The position numbers and the translations under genes were made by a program. A stretch of DNA of 32,736 nucleotides from the NCBI GenBank assembly GCA_016839445.1, contig JAEOUG010000102.1, positions 1 to 32,736 of the forward strand, given 5' to 3'. The notes beneath the pieces are model-generated. The model worked only from the letters and a program-made list of their open reading frames with translations, was not told the origin of the DNA and made no database searches. Position 1 is the first letter of the stretch. Every line of letters starts with the position of its first letter. Shown in pieces: positions 3,288-27,058 of this stretch. This stretch comes from Candidatus Thorarchaeota archaeon. Its GTDB lineage: Archaea; Asgardarchaeota; Thorarchaeia; Thorarchaeales; Thorarchaeaceae.

Positions 3288-5732
3288 CTATGCGATATCG
3301 GCCCTTCGAGCCGCGTAGACCAGGGACTCGTTGAAGTACTTCCCAACTATCTCACAGATGGCAGGACCGACAACATAGTTGATCTCACCAGGAAGCATCT
3401 CTTTGAGATTGGTCTTGGATGTCAGCCTCCCTTTCCGCTTGAGAATGCCTACTTCCCGCTCGATCTGAGCTTTCGCTTTGTCCCATGGCATCGGTTCTGC
3501 GCCTTTGCCGGCTCCAATGAGACCATCCTTGATCTCAAACATCCCCTGCATGATGAAGACTGACAAGTTGTCCATGTCGTTCGCAGCCTTGATGAAGCTC
3601 GTGCCGTGCTGTGGGCACTTCGCTGTGACAGCTCCACAAGCGGAGCAGATGTTACGACCCCGGTTTGTTCTAACATAGTAGGAGAGCAGGTTGGCGCACT
3701 TCGCGTTGTCATTCGGCGTCCACTCGAGACCCTTCGAACCAACTCTGCCAATGGCACGAAAGACTGTGGCAGCCTTGTTATGCAGGTACATCAGAACATC
3801 GATGAGTTCCTTCTTTGACTCGATGGCGGCTTTCTCCTTCTGCTTCGCCTCGAAGGCATACTCCTCCTTGGCCATCTTCTCGATTCGTTCCTGCCTCAGG
3901 AAGCGCTGCATGATGTCAAATGCGATAGCGTAGTTGTCATACTCTAGGCCAGACAAGTCTAGTGACTGACCGCCAATGCTCTCAAAGACAGGACTCGGAG
4001 TGCTCTCAAGATCCTTGCCTGCTGCTATCATGTCCTTGTTTGAGAAGCGAGCATGCATCCAGGTGCATATCGTGGTTGCATCGAACTCGGGATAGAGGAC
4101 TTTCATCTCATAGATACGCATGGAGGCGAGATCAATGAGAATCTCCTCGCGGAGGAATTGCATCGAGGTCTCTGTATCCTCGTATATGCTCTTGAGGAGG
4201 GCCTTGATGCGCAGGAGGTCCTGTTTGCTACGAATGTAGGACTCGACAACCCTTGTCAGGTTAGTAAGGATGCTGATTGTGAAGTGCCAGATGAGGTCCA
4301 TCTTGATTGAGAGAATGGCTTCTTCCTCGGTTCTCTGCTGGCTGAAGTCCTTTGCACTCGAAATGCCCAGAGTGCTCAGAGCCCCGCTCTTCACTTGCTC
4401 CCTGATGTCAAGAAGCCGCTTCATCTCGTCGGGCGGTGGAACCCTCGTCTTCTGCCTTAGTTCTCGAAGAACTTCGTTTTCGATACCTACGTATGTTGAC
4501 TCATCACGAGTAAGAAGATCAACAGTAATCTTGTCTAGCTCTTCGGCACGGAGCCCCCGGGCACGAAGCATTCCTTTGACGGGCTTGTCCAGAAGGTGCT
4601 CAAGTTTCTCTACAGTCTTCAGAGATCGCTCGAGCATCTCTAGTTCATCTTTGCTCACCTCTGGACCACGGTCCCTTGGTGCAGAAGTGGCACCCAGTGC
4701 TTTCAGAGAAGAGCCTATTGCGGTGTAGTCGGCCACTCCCCTTCTTCGAAGCTGGGCGCGAAGGTCATCGTCTTCAATCCCGAGGTACGCGGACAGCACA
4801 TCAAGGGTAATCTGCGGCTCTTTCAGGAGCTCGTCAGCAACGGGCCCTGTGACTACGCCGCCCAGTCTAGCTTCATATTCTTCAATGGTTGTTGGCGTGT
4901 CAAACTCCTGCTCCAGAGCTTCAAGCATAGCCAGACGGAGCTTGTGCGCGATGATGATTGCCTGCAAGTCTGCTCTGGGTCGACAGAACCTTCCAGCAAT
5001 TGCAGCTGTAACTGCATTCCAGCTGGCAGCAGATACCTGGAGCGCCGATAGATGGCCCTTGGCGTACTCAGCTCTACCGAAGATGGTCTCGAGCCCCATT
5101 CGTAAGATTGACGTTTCGGGAACCTCGGACGGATGCTCACGGAGCAGTTCCTCCCTGAGAGACATTGCGCTCTCCTTGAGCCCAGAAGCCTTGGCGTAGA
5201 GCTCCTTCCTCCACTGTGGCCCCCATCCAGCTAGCTCGATGATGAGGTCAATATCCTGGTTAGGGGAGTATTCAGCCGGTATGTGCCCCAAGTACTCTCT
5301 CAGGATAGCGAGAGCCTTCTCGTGGACGCCATCGTCATTCGGAGACTTCTCTGCCAGATCCTCACATAGCCGTATTGTAAGTTCGCTCAGGATTCGAGAG
5401 ACATCAATCTCCTCTCTCTGTTTATTCCCAAGCATTTGCCTGACTTCAAGCTCCAGCTGACGGCGTTCCTCGTCTCCTAATTCATCTCTCCCTTCCGCAG
5501 TTAGCTCCGGAGCGTCTTCTGGGCTGAGCAGCCGAATTCCCTGATAGCTGTGGAGGTAGAACGCTGCGAAGAAAGAGAACACATCCTCTAGCGGCTGCGT
5601 CTCACGCAGAATCGTTTCGAATAGCTGTCGGTCCCTAGTACTTCTCATGTGAGTAGCAAGTGCTTCACGGAGTAGTATCTCCTTACCAGCTTCTGACATC
5701 TGCCGAGTTTTCAGAATCCATGTACTAGACAC
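3288..5732 (-). CDS. Large (814 aa) uncharacterised, mostly helical protein with a Cys/His cluster (CSACGAVTAKCPQHG) near the C-terminus
   Basis: Long ORF; GTG start preceded by SD GAGGTGA; translationally coupled to the upstream 887-aa gene (6-nt gap). No family recognised by eye. Confidence 0.8.
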   Translation of the reverse strand: MSSTWILKTRQMSEAGKEILLREALATHMRSTRDRQLFETILRETQPLEDVFSFFAAFYLHSYQGIRLLSPEDAPELTAEGRDELGDEERRQLELEVRQMLGNKQREEIDVSRILSELTIRLCEDLAEKSPNDDGVHEKALAILREYLGHIPAEYSPNQDIDLIIELAGWGPQWRKELYAKASGLKESAMSLREELLREHPSEVPETSILRMGLETIFGRAEYAKGHLSALQVSAASWNAVTAAIAGRFCRPRADLQAIIIAHKLRLAMLEALEQEFDTPTTIEEYEARLGGVVTGPVADELLKEPQITLDVLSAYLGIEDDDLRAQLRRRGVADYTAIGSSLKALGATSAPRDRGPEVSKDELEMLERSLKTVEKLEHLLDKPVKGMLRARGLRAEELDKITVDLLTRDESTYVGIENEVLRELRQKTRVPPPDEMKRLLDIREQVKSGALSTLGISSAKDFSQQRTEEEAILSIKMDLIWHFTISILTNLTRVVESYIRSKQDLLRIKALLKSIYEDTETSMQFLREEILIDLASMRIYEMKVLYPEFDATTICTWMHARFSNKDMIAAGKDLESTPSPVFESIGGQSLDLSGLEYDNYAIAFDIMQRFLRQERIEKMAKEEYAFEAKQKEKAAIESKKELIDVLMYLHNKAATVFRAIGRVGSKGLEWTPNDNAKCANLLSYYVRTNRGRNICSACGAVTAKCPQHGTSFIKAANDMDNLSVFIMQGMFEIKDGLIGAGKGAEPMPWDKAKAQIEREVGILKRKGRLTSKTNLKEMLPGEINYVVGPAICEIVGKYFNESLVYAARRADIA

Positions 5733-5738
5733 TCATAA

Positions 5739-8402
5739 TCACCTCAGAGATGTGCTCCCAATTGACACGGACAGGGTGTCACCGAAGTGTTTGTAGCTCA
5801 CAAGATATACGAGATCGGGGGACTTCGGGTCTCTGAGATATACCCGTGAGACACGAGGTAGCAGTCCTCCTAGACGACGGACCCGTGACTGCATTATGTG
5901 ATCGAACAAGCCCGTTCCGATATCTATGCTGACGGATTTCGCTGCTTCCATTCCTTCAGCTTGGAGACGAAGAACCCTTCTGGCAAAGAGGTCCTCCATG
6001 GACTTCTCCCGGTCCTTCATGTCAGCCAGCTTGCCGTCGAGAAGGTCTCTCAAGCCGGTGTATCTTGTGAGAAGCGAGTCAGGTTCCGGCTTCGCTGGTA
6101 CTGCCTTTGCTTCCTCCGCAGGGTACTGGTCCTCTATCTCCTTAAGCCTTGGGCCAATAGGTGCCGGCTTGGCGGGTTCAACGGGCGGAGGACCAAGATC
6201 AGGCTTCGTATCAGCGTCGAGTCCTTCAGCACCTTCAGGGACATCCGGTTCAGGAACCCTCACGCTCTGAACACGCCTCTGTTGCATCAAGTCCTGGTAG
6301 TGCCGAAGCTTGGCCTCATATTCAATCAGTCTGGCGTCATGCTCTTCTTTCGCAACCCGGAGGAGTTCCTCGCGCTTCTCGTTATTGGCTCGTATCCTCT
6401 CATTCTCTGCCTCTATTCGTTCACGCTCTTCGTTCCACTCATTCAACCTCTTCTGGTATTCCTGTTCCATGAGGTCCGCCTCGGTCTTCACGCGGTCCGC
6501 CATAGCGCTGGGCGTGACTGCGGCGCCGAGTTTCTCGTGGACGAACTGGAGGAGGGAGAGCATGGCTTCTGGGGAGTCCAGAGCATCAATTCCTTCACCT
6601 CTGAAGTCACTCACCCAGTCTCTGGCTTCTGCCTTCCAGATGTCAGGCTTCTCTGCAGCGCCTTCCACAGCGTTTGACAGCACCTCCAGAACACTCGTGT
6701 TCTGCTCGACCATTTCATCAATCATGCGCCGGACGAGTGGCTTGGAGAGAATCGTATCTGCCACATCGGGAATCGTATCCGAGACTAGAGCCTCGAAAAT
6801 CTCAAGCATGTTCATCAGGGACCGGCCGTACTCTGTCAAATTGCCTGTGCCCTCTGGAACGCTGTGCTTCTTCTCTATTTCCGCCTTGGCAACTCGTGAA
6901 ACGTCGTCGAAACCAATCAGGCTCCAGACATCGGTCAGTCTGAAGACGTCTATCATTTCTCGAGTTACGGACTCCATCAGGCTCGAAAGCTCGTTGAATC
7001 TCCCACGTGAGTACTGCTGCTTTGCGAAGGCCGCCTCGAGCTGGGCTTTGACTTCACCATAGAATTTCTCGAAGAGTATCTGATCTGTGGAATCCATGTC
7101 CTCAGTGAGTACCTCCTTCCTGAACTCGGAGAGAGCTACCTGGAAAGCACTCCTAGCTGATGAAAGCACTAGGTACTGCTGAAGCTGGCCAATGAAATAC
7201 TGCGAGATTCGCTTTGCATGGTCTATCGAGTATCGTAGCGTGCTCTTGAGTTCCCAAGCCCGAATCTCATCACGTTGCAGGTTCTCTCGCGCTACTGATT
7301 TCATCATCTCCTCAGCCATGGCCTCAGCCATGCTCCGCGACCTGGCGGAGAGCTCTGAACTCTGTGCAACTGCAGAGAGGATTGCCTCTCGATGCCCGTC
7401 AATGCTTAGGGCCTTCCCAGACCCCACGTGGTCTTCGACTATGTGCTCAAGCCCAGTGACAGAGGATTGAAGCTGTTTTCCGAAGTCCGCTATGTCACCC
7501 TCAAGAGAGCTTAGCTCAGCAAGGGTGACTTGCTCTCGGTTCAAATGGCTCCTGAGAACCTCGATTGTGCTCTTGACAATGTCAGCCTCTTCTTGGGAGT
7601 ATGCGTATTCATTGAGCTCGCGGAGGATTGCCTGACCTGCCTCAGGCACATCGACAGTCAGCGCCTTGATTGCACTAGGAGTCAGGACCCTGTTCTCGAA
7701 CTCCTTAATCCCCGCCGCGGAGGAGGGGAGTCTGAACTCAAGTTCCTTCACAGAAGTCACCTTGGGCCCAGGAGGGAGAATCGTGAAATCGTCACGGATG
7801 TTCATCTTGGCCTCCAGATCGACATCAACACTGTCGGCCTTCACCTGCTGAGAATCCCACGAACCCTGAAATCGTCTGTCAATCATGTCAACGAAGAGCA
7901 CACTGTTTAGCCGATCCGCGAAGTCCCCCATGACAGCAAGTCCCTCGGGCTCGTATGTGATTTCGTTGTTGAGGATTGCCGTTTCCACATCGGCAATCTT
8001 CTTCGCCAAGACCTTCATGTAGGCATCTATCTTAAACGGGTCAACCACACCCTTCTCCCAAGTTAGGACGCATACGTGTGACCCAGTTCCGCCCTCAGAC
8101 CCACCGGCCACAACCAGCTGTTCTGGCACAATCTGCGGTCCCGGCTTTCTATCCAGATCCCACTCGATGGACAGCAGCTCTAGATTCTCTGCAGAGAGAA
8201 GAGTATCTCGTATCGAGAAGATCAGAGGCGCAATGTTCATCGAAGCGGTTTCAGAGTGCTCCTCCAGAACATTGCCTGTTCCGATGGCACTCCCAAGTGG
8301 ATAGCCCAGGCCGGTTGTCACTCCTAGTACAGACGCAGAAGCCATTCGAATAGCCTCTACTGTACTTGATGCCTGTGTTTCTCTGCGGTCTGTTCGGGCC
8401 AA
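5739..8402 (-). CDS. Large (887 aa) uncharacterised protein: N-terminal globular region, long helical/coiled-coil region, Pro-rich linker, conserved-looking C-terminal segment
   Basis: TTG start with duplicated SD GGAGGACTGGAGGACT; coiled-coil EYQKRLNEWNEERERIEAENERIRANNEKREELLRVAKEEHDARLIEYEAKLRHY; Pro-rich PDLGPPPVEPAKPAPIGP. No family recognised by eye. Confidence 0.8.
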   Translation of the reverse strand: MARTDRRETQASSTVEAIRMASASVLGVTTGLGYPLGSAIGTGNVLEEHSETASMNIAPLIFSIRDTLLSAENLELLSIEWDLDRKPGPQIVPEQLVVAGGSEGGTGSHVCVLTWEKGVVDPFKIDAYMKVLAKKIADVETAILNNEITYEPEGLAVMGDFADRLNSVLFVDMIDRRFQGSWDSQQVKADSVDVDLEAKMNIRDDFTILPPGPKVTSVKELEFRLPSSAAGIKEFENRVLTPSAIKALTVDVPEAGQAILRELNEYAYSQEEADIVKSTIEVLRSHLNREQVTLAELSSLEGDIADFGKQLQSSVTGLEHIVEDHVGSGKALSIDGHREAILSAVAQSSELSARSRSMAEAMAEEMMKSVARENLQRDEIRAWELKSTLRYSIDHAKRISQYFIGQLQQYLVLSSARSAFQVALSEFRKEVLTEDMDSTDQILFEKFYGEVKAQLEAAFAKQQYSRGRFNELSSLMESVTREMIDVFRLTDVWSLIGFDDVSRVAKAEIEKKHSVPEGTGNLTEYGRSLMNMLEIFEALVSDTIPDVADTILSKPLVRRMIDEMVEQNTSVLEVLSNAVEGAAEKPDIWKAEARDWVSDFRGEGIDALDSPEAMLSLLQFVHEKLGAAVTPSAMADRVKTEADLMEQEYQKRLNEWNEERERIEAENERIRANNEKREELLRVAKEEHDARLIEYEAKLRHYQDLMQQRRVQSVRVPEPDVPEGAEGLDADTKPDLGPPPVEPAKPAPIGPRLKEIEDQYPAEEAKAVPAKPEPDSLLTRYTGLRDLLDGKLADMKDREKSMEDLFARRVLRLQAEGMEAAKSVSIDIGTGLFDHIMQSRVRRLGGLLPRVSRVYLRDPKSPDLVYLVSYKHFGDTLSVSIGSTSLR

Positions 8403-8406
8403 GGTT

Positions 8407-8422
8407 AGTCCTCCAGTCCTCC
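8407..8422 (-). promoter_or_regulatory. Tandemly duplicated Shine-Dalgarno (2 x GGAGGACT) upstream of the 887-aa gene
   Basis: Plus strand agtcctccagtcctcc, an exact 8-bp direct repeat; reads GGAGGACTGGAGGACTAACCTTG on the coding strand. Confidence 0.55.
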
Positions 8423-10356: not shown

Positions 10357-11328
10357 GTGCTTGTTGACGTGTCATCACTTGTGTACATACCTTTGGAGAA
10401 TGAAAGAGTCCTAGCTCAGTCCCCTGAGTACTACCTCACGAATTATCGCCTCATTCAGTTCGATCATGGAACTAGGTCAAGCGTGAGTATTCCGCTTCAC
10501 ATAATCAAGGAGTACAAGCTGACTCCAAGATCCGCCATGTTCAAGGTCACGAACGGGATAGTCAACGTGGTAGGAAACATGGTCCGTAGGGAGGAGTTGA
10601 GGTCCGCTCTGGGATTGAGGGAATATGACGGACTCACTGCAGGCATGTATAGGAAAATATGTGAAGTGAGCGGGATTCCCTTTGTACATCCAGATCATCC
10701 CTACAACAGATGGAGCACTATAGGATTCCATCGTCCCTTTTCACGACACTTCTACTCCACCTTCGCGTGGCTCAAGGACGAAGAGGTCTTCACGTACTAT
10801 CCGGACAACTTCATTCTGACGAACTACCGGCTCTATCAGCAGGACTTCAAAACGGGAAGGCTGTTCCTGTTCCCACTGTACATGGTAGAGACTTTCGAGT
10901 CTAGGAGCGGCCGACTCAGAATCAAGGCAACCACAGGGAGGTTCGACATCAAGGCAGTGGTGCCCAGACAGGACCACCTTGTGTCTGTCTGGCAGGCAAG
11001 GCTTTGGGACAGACTACCAAGAGAGCATCACGACTGGCTAGTTCGACCGTTTAGCTATATCACTCCTCATCACCCATTGTCACAGTACGAGGTAAGTGAC
11101 CAGGCAATGGTTACTCCAAGCCCAGTGGCGAGGGAAACCAGTCAGGAAATGGAGGCAGCAGCAGGTTCTGCCGGCGCAGGAACTGTCTTTGTCAAGCCCG
11201 TCATCAAGGACTCCTGCACCAATTGCGGTGCACCCATGTCTTGGGAGAGAATCGATTGGACTGGACCTGATCAGTACGCCTGTCCGTCCTGCGGACATCC
11301 ACACAGAGTGGACTACATCAGAATGTAG
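10357..11328 (+). CDS. Protein with two tandem PH/GRAM/GLUE-like repeats and a C-terminal zinc ribbon
   Basis: Repeat 1 ENERVLAQSPEYYLTNYRLIQFDHGTRSSVSIPLHIIKEY; repeat 2 KDEEVFTYYPDNFILTNYRLYQQDFKTGRLFLFPLYMVETF; zinc ribbon CTNCGAPMSW...YACPSCGHPHR. GTG start is one of several possible. Confidence 0.75.
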   Translation: MLVDVSSLVYIPLENERVLAQSPEYYLTNYRLIQFDHGTRSSVSIPLHIIKEYKLTPRSAMFKVTNGIVNVVGNMVRREELRSALGLREYDGLTAGMYRKICEVSGIPFVHPDHPYNRWSTIGFHRPFSRHFYSTFAWLKDEEVFTYYPDNFILTNYRLYQQDFKTGRLFLFPLYMVETFESRSGRLRIKATTGRFDIKAVVPRQDHLVSVWQARLWDRLPREHHDWLVRPFSYITPHHPLSQYEVSDQAMVTPSPVARETSQEMEAAAGSAGAGTVFVKPVIKDSCTNCGAPMSWERIDWTGPDQYACPSCGHPHRVDYIRM

Positions 11329-24386: not shown

Positions 24387-25865
24387 CTACGCAGGTAGGT
24401 ATGCTTCGACTTCTTTGAGGTCCTGCGTTCTTAGCCGGGACTTCGAACGGCTCTGGGAGAGTATTGCGCCTATGATGGAGCCCTCTGCCATCAGCTCTCG
24501 AGATAGATAGGCCCGGCCACCAGCTGCGCGGGCTATGAGATAGGCGCCGAAAGTCCGGCGGAACTCATCCACCGCCAAGATCGTCTCAATCGGGTCCTTG
24601 TATCCCTCCTTTCTGCCCCTGAGGAGGGCCGCCAACTCAAGCGCGTCGTGGTAGGGGCGCTTCAGGAAGCTGGACCATCTTCTTTGCTCCAAGTCGACAT
24701 TCACGCAAGCCAGCTGAACCTTCTGTTTCTTCAGCGTTCTTGCCGCCCTGACCAAGTCCTGTACAGGAGTGAATTGCGCATGGCCAGGACCAACAGACTG
24801 CGCAAGGGGGATGTTGGGAGAGAAGTCTGAGATAAGGATCACAAGAGCCTCGATATCCTCATTGCGCATCCGCTCTCTCCTGATGGTCTCCATAGCTTTC
24901 TTCAATGCATCTGCCAACGGTGTGAGCCCTGAGATCTTCAGACGACCGAGGGCGCGATACAGCTTGTTCCAATTAGTGGTTGGCGCCTGTACCTCCACAG
25001 CACCGCTGTCTTTGAACGCGATGATCCCGGTACGATCCTTGGAGCCCCTAGTCTCAGCCTCAAGACGCTCGATGAACTCCCTCACCTGCTCGATGCTACC
25101 CTTCATGGAAAGGCTCACGTCAATGACAAGCATGATAGTCAGGGGTGTTCGTCCAGTGAACACACTCTCACGGACATCTTCCTTCTTTATCGCAATCGGG
25201 AGCTCGCGTTCAATGCCAGACCTTGCGGCCGCTGCAATCACGGTCGATGGAATGTGGATGTTGGTAATCTCCCGGGAGGGAATTCGAGACCTCACAGGTC
25301 TTCCGTGCTTCATGGCATCAGAAGCCTTCAATGAGCCCGTTGCACGAGACCTCGTGCTCTTGTTGATCCATCCTCCAGATGACACTTTGGAACGAATCAT
25401 AGCCCGGCGCCTAAGCTTCTCAAGATCGAAGACCTCTTCGCCGGTGTCAATGTCAGGGGTCTTCAGGAAGAAGCCGTCGTCGAGGTCGTAGGGAGAGTCT
25501 CGAATCTCAGACTTCGATCCAGTGATGGCCGTCTTCTTCTGAGGTGCATATGGTCGTGTCGCCAAGCCCCACTCATCGCCAGGCTCCGGGTATCCCATTC
25601 CTGGCTCAACAGTGTCAATCCCTGCCGCAGGCCCACTCTTCCTTCTGGTCATCACTTCCAACCACTTCTTCGCCAGACGGTACATCAGAGGTGCGTAGAT
25701 TAGCACGTCTATGATTATGGCCGGCCATGGAGGGAACTCGAAGAGCTGTGCGCCAAATAGCCAGTTGACCGGACTCACGTAGAGCCACGGGAAGAAGGGT
25801 AGAATGACGAAGAGCATTACGGCGCAGATGGTCCCCTTGATGGGATCACCCTGGGGGTTTCTCAC
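24387..25865 (-). CDS. VWA (BchD C-terminal-like) protein with an N-terminal transmembrane region
   Basis: [23 protein letters not shown] (MIDAS DxSxS), [16 protein letters not shown] segments near the N-terminus; GTG start overlaps the BchI-like stop codon (GTGA). Confidence 0.9.
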
Positions 25866-27058
25866 TTTTTGTGGAGCTTTTTTTTTCCTTCTTGCTCCCC
25901 ATATTGAGCGAAGCGGGACTGGCGACCAAAGGAGCCACCGCTCAGCCTTGTGCCCTTCTCACCATCTTCCTCTTCTGGAGGAACTTCAGTCGGTGACTTC
26001 CGCGTCTTGCTCCTCTGAGATATCTCAGTAGCCTTTGTAATCGCTCGGTCAATGTCATCTGGAGACGGGGGTTCGAGAAGTCCGCCCCTTCTGGTGCGGT
26101 GGCTGAGGGCTAGCTGAGAGGCAATCTTCATGTCTTCCAGACTGACCTCCATCCTCCCTTCGAAGGCAGCATTGGTTATAGAGGCCTTGCTAATCACGAT
26201 GTCTGGCCTGACTCCATCGACTTCGAGCGCGTCACAGGCCATGGCGATTGCGCGAAGGTGATAATCTTTCAGTACTACATCGCCCAGAATCTGCTTGGCT
26301 TTCTCAATGCGGCTTCTGAGCTCATCCTGTCGATCCGTCCATGCATCACGAAAGGCCATGGGGTCATCCTCGAAAGCCAAGTTCCTACGAACGAGTTCCA
26401 TCCGGTCATCAATGCTGTGCTGTGCCGTCACATTGACGTGGAGGGGGAAGCGATCGAGGAGCTGAGGTCTGAGTTCGCCCTCTTCAGGATTCATCGTCCC
26501 GATGAGCACGAAGTTGGATGGATGAGAGATCGATATGCCCTCTCGCTCGATCACATTGACCTTTGTTGCAGCAGCGTCAAGTAAATCGTCAACAAGATGA
26601 TCTGGCAGTAGATTGACTTCATCTACGTAGAGAACGTTCTGGTGTGCCTCGGCGAGGATTCCCGGTCGGAGAGCTTGGATTCCTTCCTTGAGAACCAGTT
26701 CAATGTCTAGGGAGCCAATGAGTCGATCTTCTGTGGTCGATAGAGGAAGGTTGACAACTCGCATCTTGCGGCTCTTGGTCCTAAGAGTCTCCTTGGACTC
26801 GACTCTCGAAGCACATTCCTCACAGAGGAACTCAGGAGTATCGGGATTGCAGCCGAAGCGGCATCCCTCAACGATACTTACCTCCGGGAGGAGGTCTGCA
26901 AGAGCACGGACAACTGTGGTCTTACCCGTACCCTTTGGACCCGAGATCAAAACGCCACCAATCTGAGGGTTGATGCCATTCAGAACCAAAGCGAGCTTGA
27001 GATTCTCAAGGCCCACTACTGCGGTAAAGGGCATTGTCGCTCGCTTGAGTTCGCTCAT
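25862..27058 (-). CDS. BchI/MoxR-like AAA+ ATPase (Mg-chelatase ATPase subunit-like)
   Basis: [19 protein letters not shown] (Walker A), [19 protein letters not shown] insert, [28 protein letters not shown] (Walker B), [22 protein letters not shown]. Confidence 0.94.

Follow-up and report, generated by a model that had tools for sequence, protein, structure and literature searches.

What are the two very large genes that stand side by side, without a recognisable family, on a contig of Candidatus Thorarchaeota archaeon (JAEOUG010000102.1, positions 1 to 32,736, this whole stretch of 32,736 nucleotides being called the window below)? They run head to tail on the minus strand, where all features of the pair given here lie, with 6 nt between them: the upstream gene, P1 (5739..8402), is an open reading frame of 887 amino acids with a TTG start, and the second gene, P2 (3288..5732), is one of 814 amino acids with a GTG start. 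An earlier, sequence-only reading had called them the largest uncharacterised genes of the window, and they are indeed its two longest open reading frames, found exactly as it had described them. In the reverse complement, the P1/P2 junction reads CTGAGGTGATTATGAGTG, in which the TGA of P1 (5739-5741) forms the last letters of GAGGTGA, a Shine-Dalgarno-like motif of P2 (5739..5745), and the GTG of P2 begins 6 nt further on. The sequence 5' of P1 is GGAGGACTGGAGGACTAACCTTG, so that a Shine-Dalgarno-like GGAGGACT stands doubled ahead of the TTG (8407..8422); both signals had been pointed out before and were read again directly. Judging from the overlap of GAGGTGA with the stop codon, P1 and P2 are likely to be translationally coupled. 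The two frames and their start sites go far beyond chance, because homologues with matching N-termini are carried by 15 of the 15 other genomes of the genus that were searched; these same-genus homologues are mostly open over their full length, the remainder being interrupted by contig ends.

The absence of a recognisable family was borne out by sequence, profile and structure searches. The window proteins and the members from other families gave only sub-threshold or coiled-coil matches in Pfam, NCBIfam, PADLOC and PHROGs; in PADLOC, seven of the eight pair proteins had no match and the eighth matched through its coiled coil alone, and in PHROGs the matches were confined to the coiled-coil region of one relative. 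Against PDB sequences and profiles, P1 gave weak, mostly coiled-coil matches (BICDR1, AgI/II) and P2 gave nothing significant, while whole-model Foldseek of both proteins against the PDB, and of P2 against viral structures (BFVD), returned no match at E 0.001. A confident match of both proteins to a known family, the outcome that the sequence-only reading had itself named as decisive against it, was thus searched for and not found, and in the open-access literature we came across no paper that appears to describe the pair, neither protein having a name to search by. Provisionally, the pair lies outside every known family tested, the structural comparison covering the PDB for both proteins and viral models for P2.

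Several identities can be set aside on the same material. A Walker A pattern occurs in 3 of 114 P1 and 6 of 108 P2 sequences, at differing positions and never conserved across families, which rejects a P-loop NTPase, SMC or Rad50-type identity. Anti-phage defence genes were rejected on the lack of any PADLOC match outside coiled coils, and the chromosomal synteny of the pair speaks against phage structural genes. Neither protein has a transmembrane segment (best 19-residue hydropathy mean, 1.4), and no ESCRT, dynamin, BAR or actin-type match rose above noise for P1 or P2, so that the membrane-remodelling role that had been suggested for the pair is unsupported.

The next step of the answer comes from the distribution of the pair. 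Among 228 Asgard genomes, whole-genome profile searches found P1 in 117 and P2 in 121; outside the phylum, 165 genomes were searched without a match to P2 (393 genomes in total; all 121 carriers are Asgard). The carriers of both belong to eight families, namely f1 (Thorarchaeia, the window's own), f2 (by inference Loki-type), f4 (Jordarchaeum, Jordarchaeia), f19, f22, f23, f24 and f25, and numerous further Asgard families carry neither protein, f11 and f13 being examples among the genomes listed. When genome contigs were scanned, a single-sequence query returned nothing and an alignment-based query returned 40 loci. Of 62 P1 loci taken together with their flanking sequence, 60 have P2 immediately after P1 on the same strand; the distance between the two ranges from -44 to +62 nt, the negative values partly reflecting the mechanical choice of the first start codon. 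Another 50 adjacent pairs brought those examined to 110, all in the same order and on the same strand, and the sole intact exceptions seen were two f22 genomes with P1 and P2 on separate contigs. The pairing in related genomes, on which the sequence-only reading had staked its claim, is therefore conserved, in at least seven Asgard families.

P1 and P2 are also co-inherited. Their tree distances correlate (r = 0.96), and both trees recover the same families, which are monophyletic except for f25 and the f19 clade, inside which one f25 tip falls. That copy, in genome G183 (locus L100), is filed under f25, but it groups inside f19 in both trees, its whole neighbourhood also matches f19, and it may be a misbinned contig or a transferred one. 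Separately, a single contig of the f2 genome G159 (locus L118, 6894-18748) contains the whole pair twice in tandem, the second copy with a shorter P2 of 735 amino acids, and several other f2 genomes have such a short-type P2 (730-763 amino acids), which suggests that these copies are paralogues. Most flanking genes differ between families, and therefore the pair itself is the unit; P1 and P2 stay together in seven of the eight families. From the constant adjacency, the changing neighbours and the congruent trees, selection appears to keep the two genes together, and the constant adjacency and co-occurrence expected of an obligate two-subunit complex hold over deep divergence.

Regarding the proteins themselves, the AlphaFold2 model of P1 (pLDDT 85.7, pTM 0.77, from an alignment of 34 sequences) indicates that the earlier description of the proteins as helical and without a domain was too simple for P1, the first 175 residues of which are predicted to form an alpha/beta domain. 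This domain (residues 14-174; 7881..8363) has the DSSP elements H14-21, E23-29, E35-41, H50-72, E75-85, E95-103, E106-114, H122-145 and H150-174 and is ungapped across all families. Its order, (a)-b-b-a-b-b-b-a-a, is in topology only that of longin and Roadblock domains as set out in PMC10933270, with a short helix ahead of the longin-type order, as in Roadblocks. In this order it resembles the Roadblock/LC7-longin-profilin group (MglB, LAMTOR2/3, TRAPPC1/4), and Roadblock genes adjoin the pair in Loki-type genomes; in contrast to the members of that group, the P1 domain is fused to about 700 mostly helical residues and shows neither profile similarity to them nor a significant full-model Foldseek match. 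With hhalign, the P1 domain reached a probability of 0.3% against Asgard Roadblock profiles, while decoys from 56 families reached up to 3.1% and two Roadblock groups, as a positive control, matched each other at 97%. None of ten P1-type N-terminal domains scanned with Pfam matched Robl_LC7 or longin. Among 34 P1 members, a single one touched a longin-like model, at E 0.039, which is noise level; when relatives were searched with the longin model, it detected almost no protein in these Asgard genomes. Full-length P1 found no match below E 0.1 in the PDB with Foldseek. The model therefore leaves it that the domain could be longin or Roadblock by topology, which is not supported by sequence, and we have not filed it under either because its sequence profiles stay at background despite the topology.

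This topology is nevertheless the ground for the best surviving alternative, in which the pair would be a tethering or coat-like membrane complex, with the longin-type domain of P1 (b1b2-a1-b3b4b5-a2-a3) and the helical bodies acting as a tether, an adaptor or a Rab-GEF platform and P2 as the helical partner. Proteins of the longin, Roadblock and TRAPPC3 types do occur in Asgard archaea (PMC10933270), and the tri-longin Rab-GEF complexes (Mon1-Ccz1) and TRAPP resemble such a complex in concept, as multi-subunit assemblies whose longin platform serves small GTPases. However, no homology of these complexes to P1 or P2 was detected, and P2 is unlike their subunits, so the likeness is one of analogy only; given, moreover, that the pair shows no tether or coat homology by sequence or whole-model fold, that it has no membrane anchor, and that hhalign to Roadblock remains at background, we regard this alternative as unlikely.

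Beyond the N-terminal domain, the P1 model predicts a beta hairpin (residues 193-223; 7734..7826) that has no gaps in 114 homologues, a helical body (232-628; 6519..7709), an 84-residue helix or coiled coil (631-714; 6261..6512) with coiled-coil-type matches only, a Pro-rich and partly disordered linker with the lowest pLDDT (715-775; 6078..6260), a second long helix of 46 residues (776-821) and a C-terminal segment of one helix and three beta strands (825-883; 5754..5930). The compact C-terminal segment had been seen from the sequence and turned out to be universal (gap fraction 0.01 over 114 homologues); its strands and the hairpin are present in all families. The remaining architecture had also been read correctly for the window's P1, from its globular N-terminus and helical region to its coiled coil and linker, but the last two are lineage-specific and not general features of the family: the coiled-coil/linker part has about 160-230 residues in some lineages and only about 65-90 in f2, f22, f23, f24 and part of f25, and residues 630-825 correspond to 72 residues in f2 versus about 180. 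The hairpin could complete a further sheet with the C-terminal strands, as read from the order of elements b-b-[insert]-a-b-b-b. This hypothetical split second domain gave only background scores in hhalign against Roadblock profiles and the N-terminal domain (56 decoy families), and mean-field DCA of 114 P1 sequences ranked the known hairpins, used as positive controls, at about chance level.

In a cytoskeletal or filament function, the coiled coil of P1 would polymerise or cross-link and P2 would serve as a helical cap, which is close to the filament that the sequence-only reading had considered. The two long helices, the restriction of profile matches to coiled-coil proteins and the highest-ranking Foldseek matches of P1 in the PDB, all axonemal coiled coils with E values exceeding 0.1, would agree with it. 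However, matches of this kind are unspecific, nothing in P2 matches a repeat or filament type, and f2, f22, f23 and f24 have no coiled coil or a much shorter one while the pair persists; a filament role is less likely because the coiled coil is thus dispensable across families, and this alternative is in our view quite improbable.

With respect to the surrounding genes, the Thorarchaeia pair is flanked by metabolic genes (CutA1, a metallo-beta-lactamase fold protein and DHDPS-Fae), and this, together with the lack of any annotation, could make P1 and P2 two ordinary, fast-evolving, Asgard-specific metabolic or stress orphans, adjacent merely through inherited gene order. We consider this quite unlikely too, given that most neighbours change while P1 and P2 remain together, and that the presence and absence of the two coincide. 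An operon shared with CutA1, the metallo-beta-lactamase or DHDPS-Fae was likewise rejected, these neighbours being confined to Thorarchaeia and CutA1 lying on the opposite strand.

Some features of these neighbourhoods deserve mention in their own right. At the majority of the other loci in Thorarchaeia, the genes after P2 are a tandem pair of fusions of the dihydrodipicolinate synthase family with the formaldehyde-activating enzyme (Fae), which are unusual and kept in Thorarchaeia (L043:13515-16469 and relatives). In the window, two paralogous membrane proteins encoded in tandem, which share 40% identity and were not found at related loci, come between P2 and a truncated DHDPS-Fae gene at the contig edge (5-667, 680-1648 and 1832-2860, all on the minus strand). 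A Thorarchaeia-conserved neighbour of 323 amino acids (10357-11328, plus strand) gives sub-threshold Vps36 ESCRT-II (GLUE) and zinc-ribbon matches, and two overlapping genes, one for a MoxR-like AAA ATPase and one for a von Willebrand A domain protein, form a typical MoxR-VWA pair (24387-27058, minus strand). In Jordarchaeia (L046:14812-16026, L096 and L097), the genes immediately after P2, in the same orientation, encode a HEAT-repeat protein and a zinc-ribbon/winged-helix protein in three of three genomes, and genome G021 shows a 4-nt overlap of the HEAT gene with P2.

Outside Thorarchaeia, the neighbours point in another direction. The gene beside P1, divergently oriented, encodes a Roadblock/LC7 protein at nearly every f2 locus examined and also at that of f23, and in two f4 genomes a Roadblock gene lies five to six genes from the pair; in f22 an Arf/Ras-type GTPase gene directly follows P2, and in f19 and G183 (f25) a GTPase of another type is found two genes downstream of P2, so that the GTPases near the pair belong to two unrelated types. 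Within two genes of the pair, no Roadblock or GTPase gene was found in f1, the window's family, or in f24. Measured gene densities give a probability of about 0.004 that three of six independent contexts have a Roadblock or GTPase gene within two genes on either side; this is a post hoc figure for a pattern noticed after looking, and Roadblock and GTPase genes abound in Asgard genomes, each having 14-105 Arf-type and 12-23 Roadblock matches. Gene context is moreover a weak guide here, because the small-GTPase genes of MK-D1 are generally not in operons with those of their presumed regulators, namely the Roadblock, longin or TRAPPC3 genes (PMC10933270). We therefore take this neighbourhood as a lead only, the pattern being post hoc and the window's lineage showing no such neighbour. 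The arrangement recalls MglA/MglB and conservon-type GTPase-Roadblock systems in that small GTPase or Roadblock genes adjoin the pair in several Asgard families, and some bacterial GTPase genes (Group 1 Rup) likewise adjoin a gene for a predicted coiled-coil protein whose function is unknown (PMC4316618). In contrast to those systems, the GTPase and Roadblock genes are not constant members of the P1-P2 unit, and in Thorarchaeia, the window included, none is near it.

P2 is helical throughout in its AlphaFold2 model (pLDDT 84.9, pTM 0.68, alignment of 37 sequences) and carries near its C-terminus a CxxC-x6-CxxH zinc knuckle (Cys/His at 696/699/706/709; residues 696-709; 3606..3647). Both had been read from the sequence, but the cluster is not general, occurring in f1, f4, f19, f22 and some f24 and f25 members and being absent from all f2 members. 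A chromosome-associated (non-SMC, kleisin/ScpAB-like) or nucleic-acid-binding complex, its knuckle contacting DNA or RNA, would suit a two-gene unit of elongated helical proteins, a knuckle resembling TFIIB-type ribbons at sub-threshold scores (E 0.25 for the window's P2, at best 0.00095 for one relative) and a relative whose coiled-coil stretch touches JetC/SbcC-type models, but it is the least probable of the alternatives, as the knuckle is absent across the f2 clade, the SMC-type matches are restricted to the coiled coil and the net charges (P1 -47, P2 -19) are unlike those of most nucleic-acid binders.

Tentatively, and with a probability of a little under 40%, we propose that P1 and P2 form an Asgard-only, obligate two-subunit cytoplasmic scaffold or adaptor, not itself an NTPase, that may couple a small Ras/Arf-type GTPase switch to a downstream process. 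Coupled translation would supply P1 and P2 in matched amounts, and the two would associate physically in a fixed stoichiometry; the N-terminal alpha/beta domain of P1 would work as a docking module on a long helical body closed by the C-terminal beta segment, with P2 as its all-helical partner, bearing a zinc knuckle in some lineages. In keeping with a cytoplasmic, non-enzymatic scaffold, the proteins have no conserved Walker A, no transmembrane segment and no enzyme family match. The complex would then most likely act as a platform or effector linking a small Ras/Arf-type GTPase and a Roadblock regulator to a cellular process, although this link, and the process that the pair would serve, are speculative. 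What thereby stands of the earlier suggestion, which had named filaments, scaffolds and membrane remodelling, is the scaffold within a likely undescribed complex, resting on a conserved two-gene unit of no known family. A further elaboration, which we find doubtful, would make it a GTPase-regulated, Asgard-specific scaffold in which P1 has a highly diverged platform of the longin type, perhaps together with another that is split (halves 193-223 and 825-883, with a 600-residue helical insertion between them), and acts with P2 as a Ras/Arf-Roadblock effector, in that reading an analogue, evolved during the Asgard radiation, of tethering or polarity complexes.

Attention to Asgard cell biology has been mostly on proteins with eukaryotic counterparts, and searches starting from eukaryotic genes would miss this pair, since no eukaryotic relative of P1 or P2 can be recognised. 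No family database, solved structure or viral model searched describes either of them. Direct tests of the pair would be possible if the Loki-type f2 includes cultured Asgards. About 1,700 residues have been kept as a two-gene unit in at least seven Asgard families, including Thorarchaeia, Jordarchaeia and the Loki-type one, and its size and age therefore make this unit a likely core component of Asgard cell biology.
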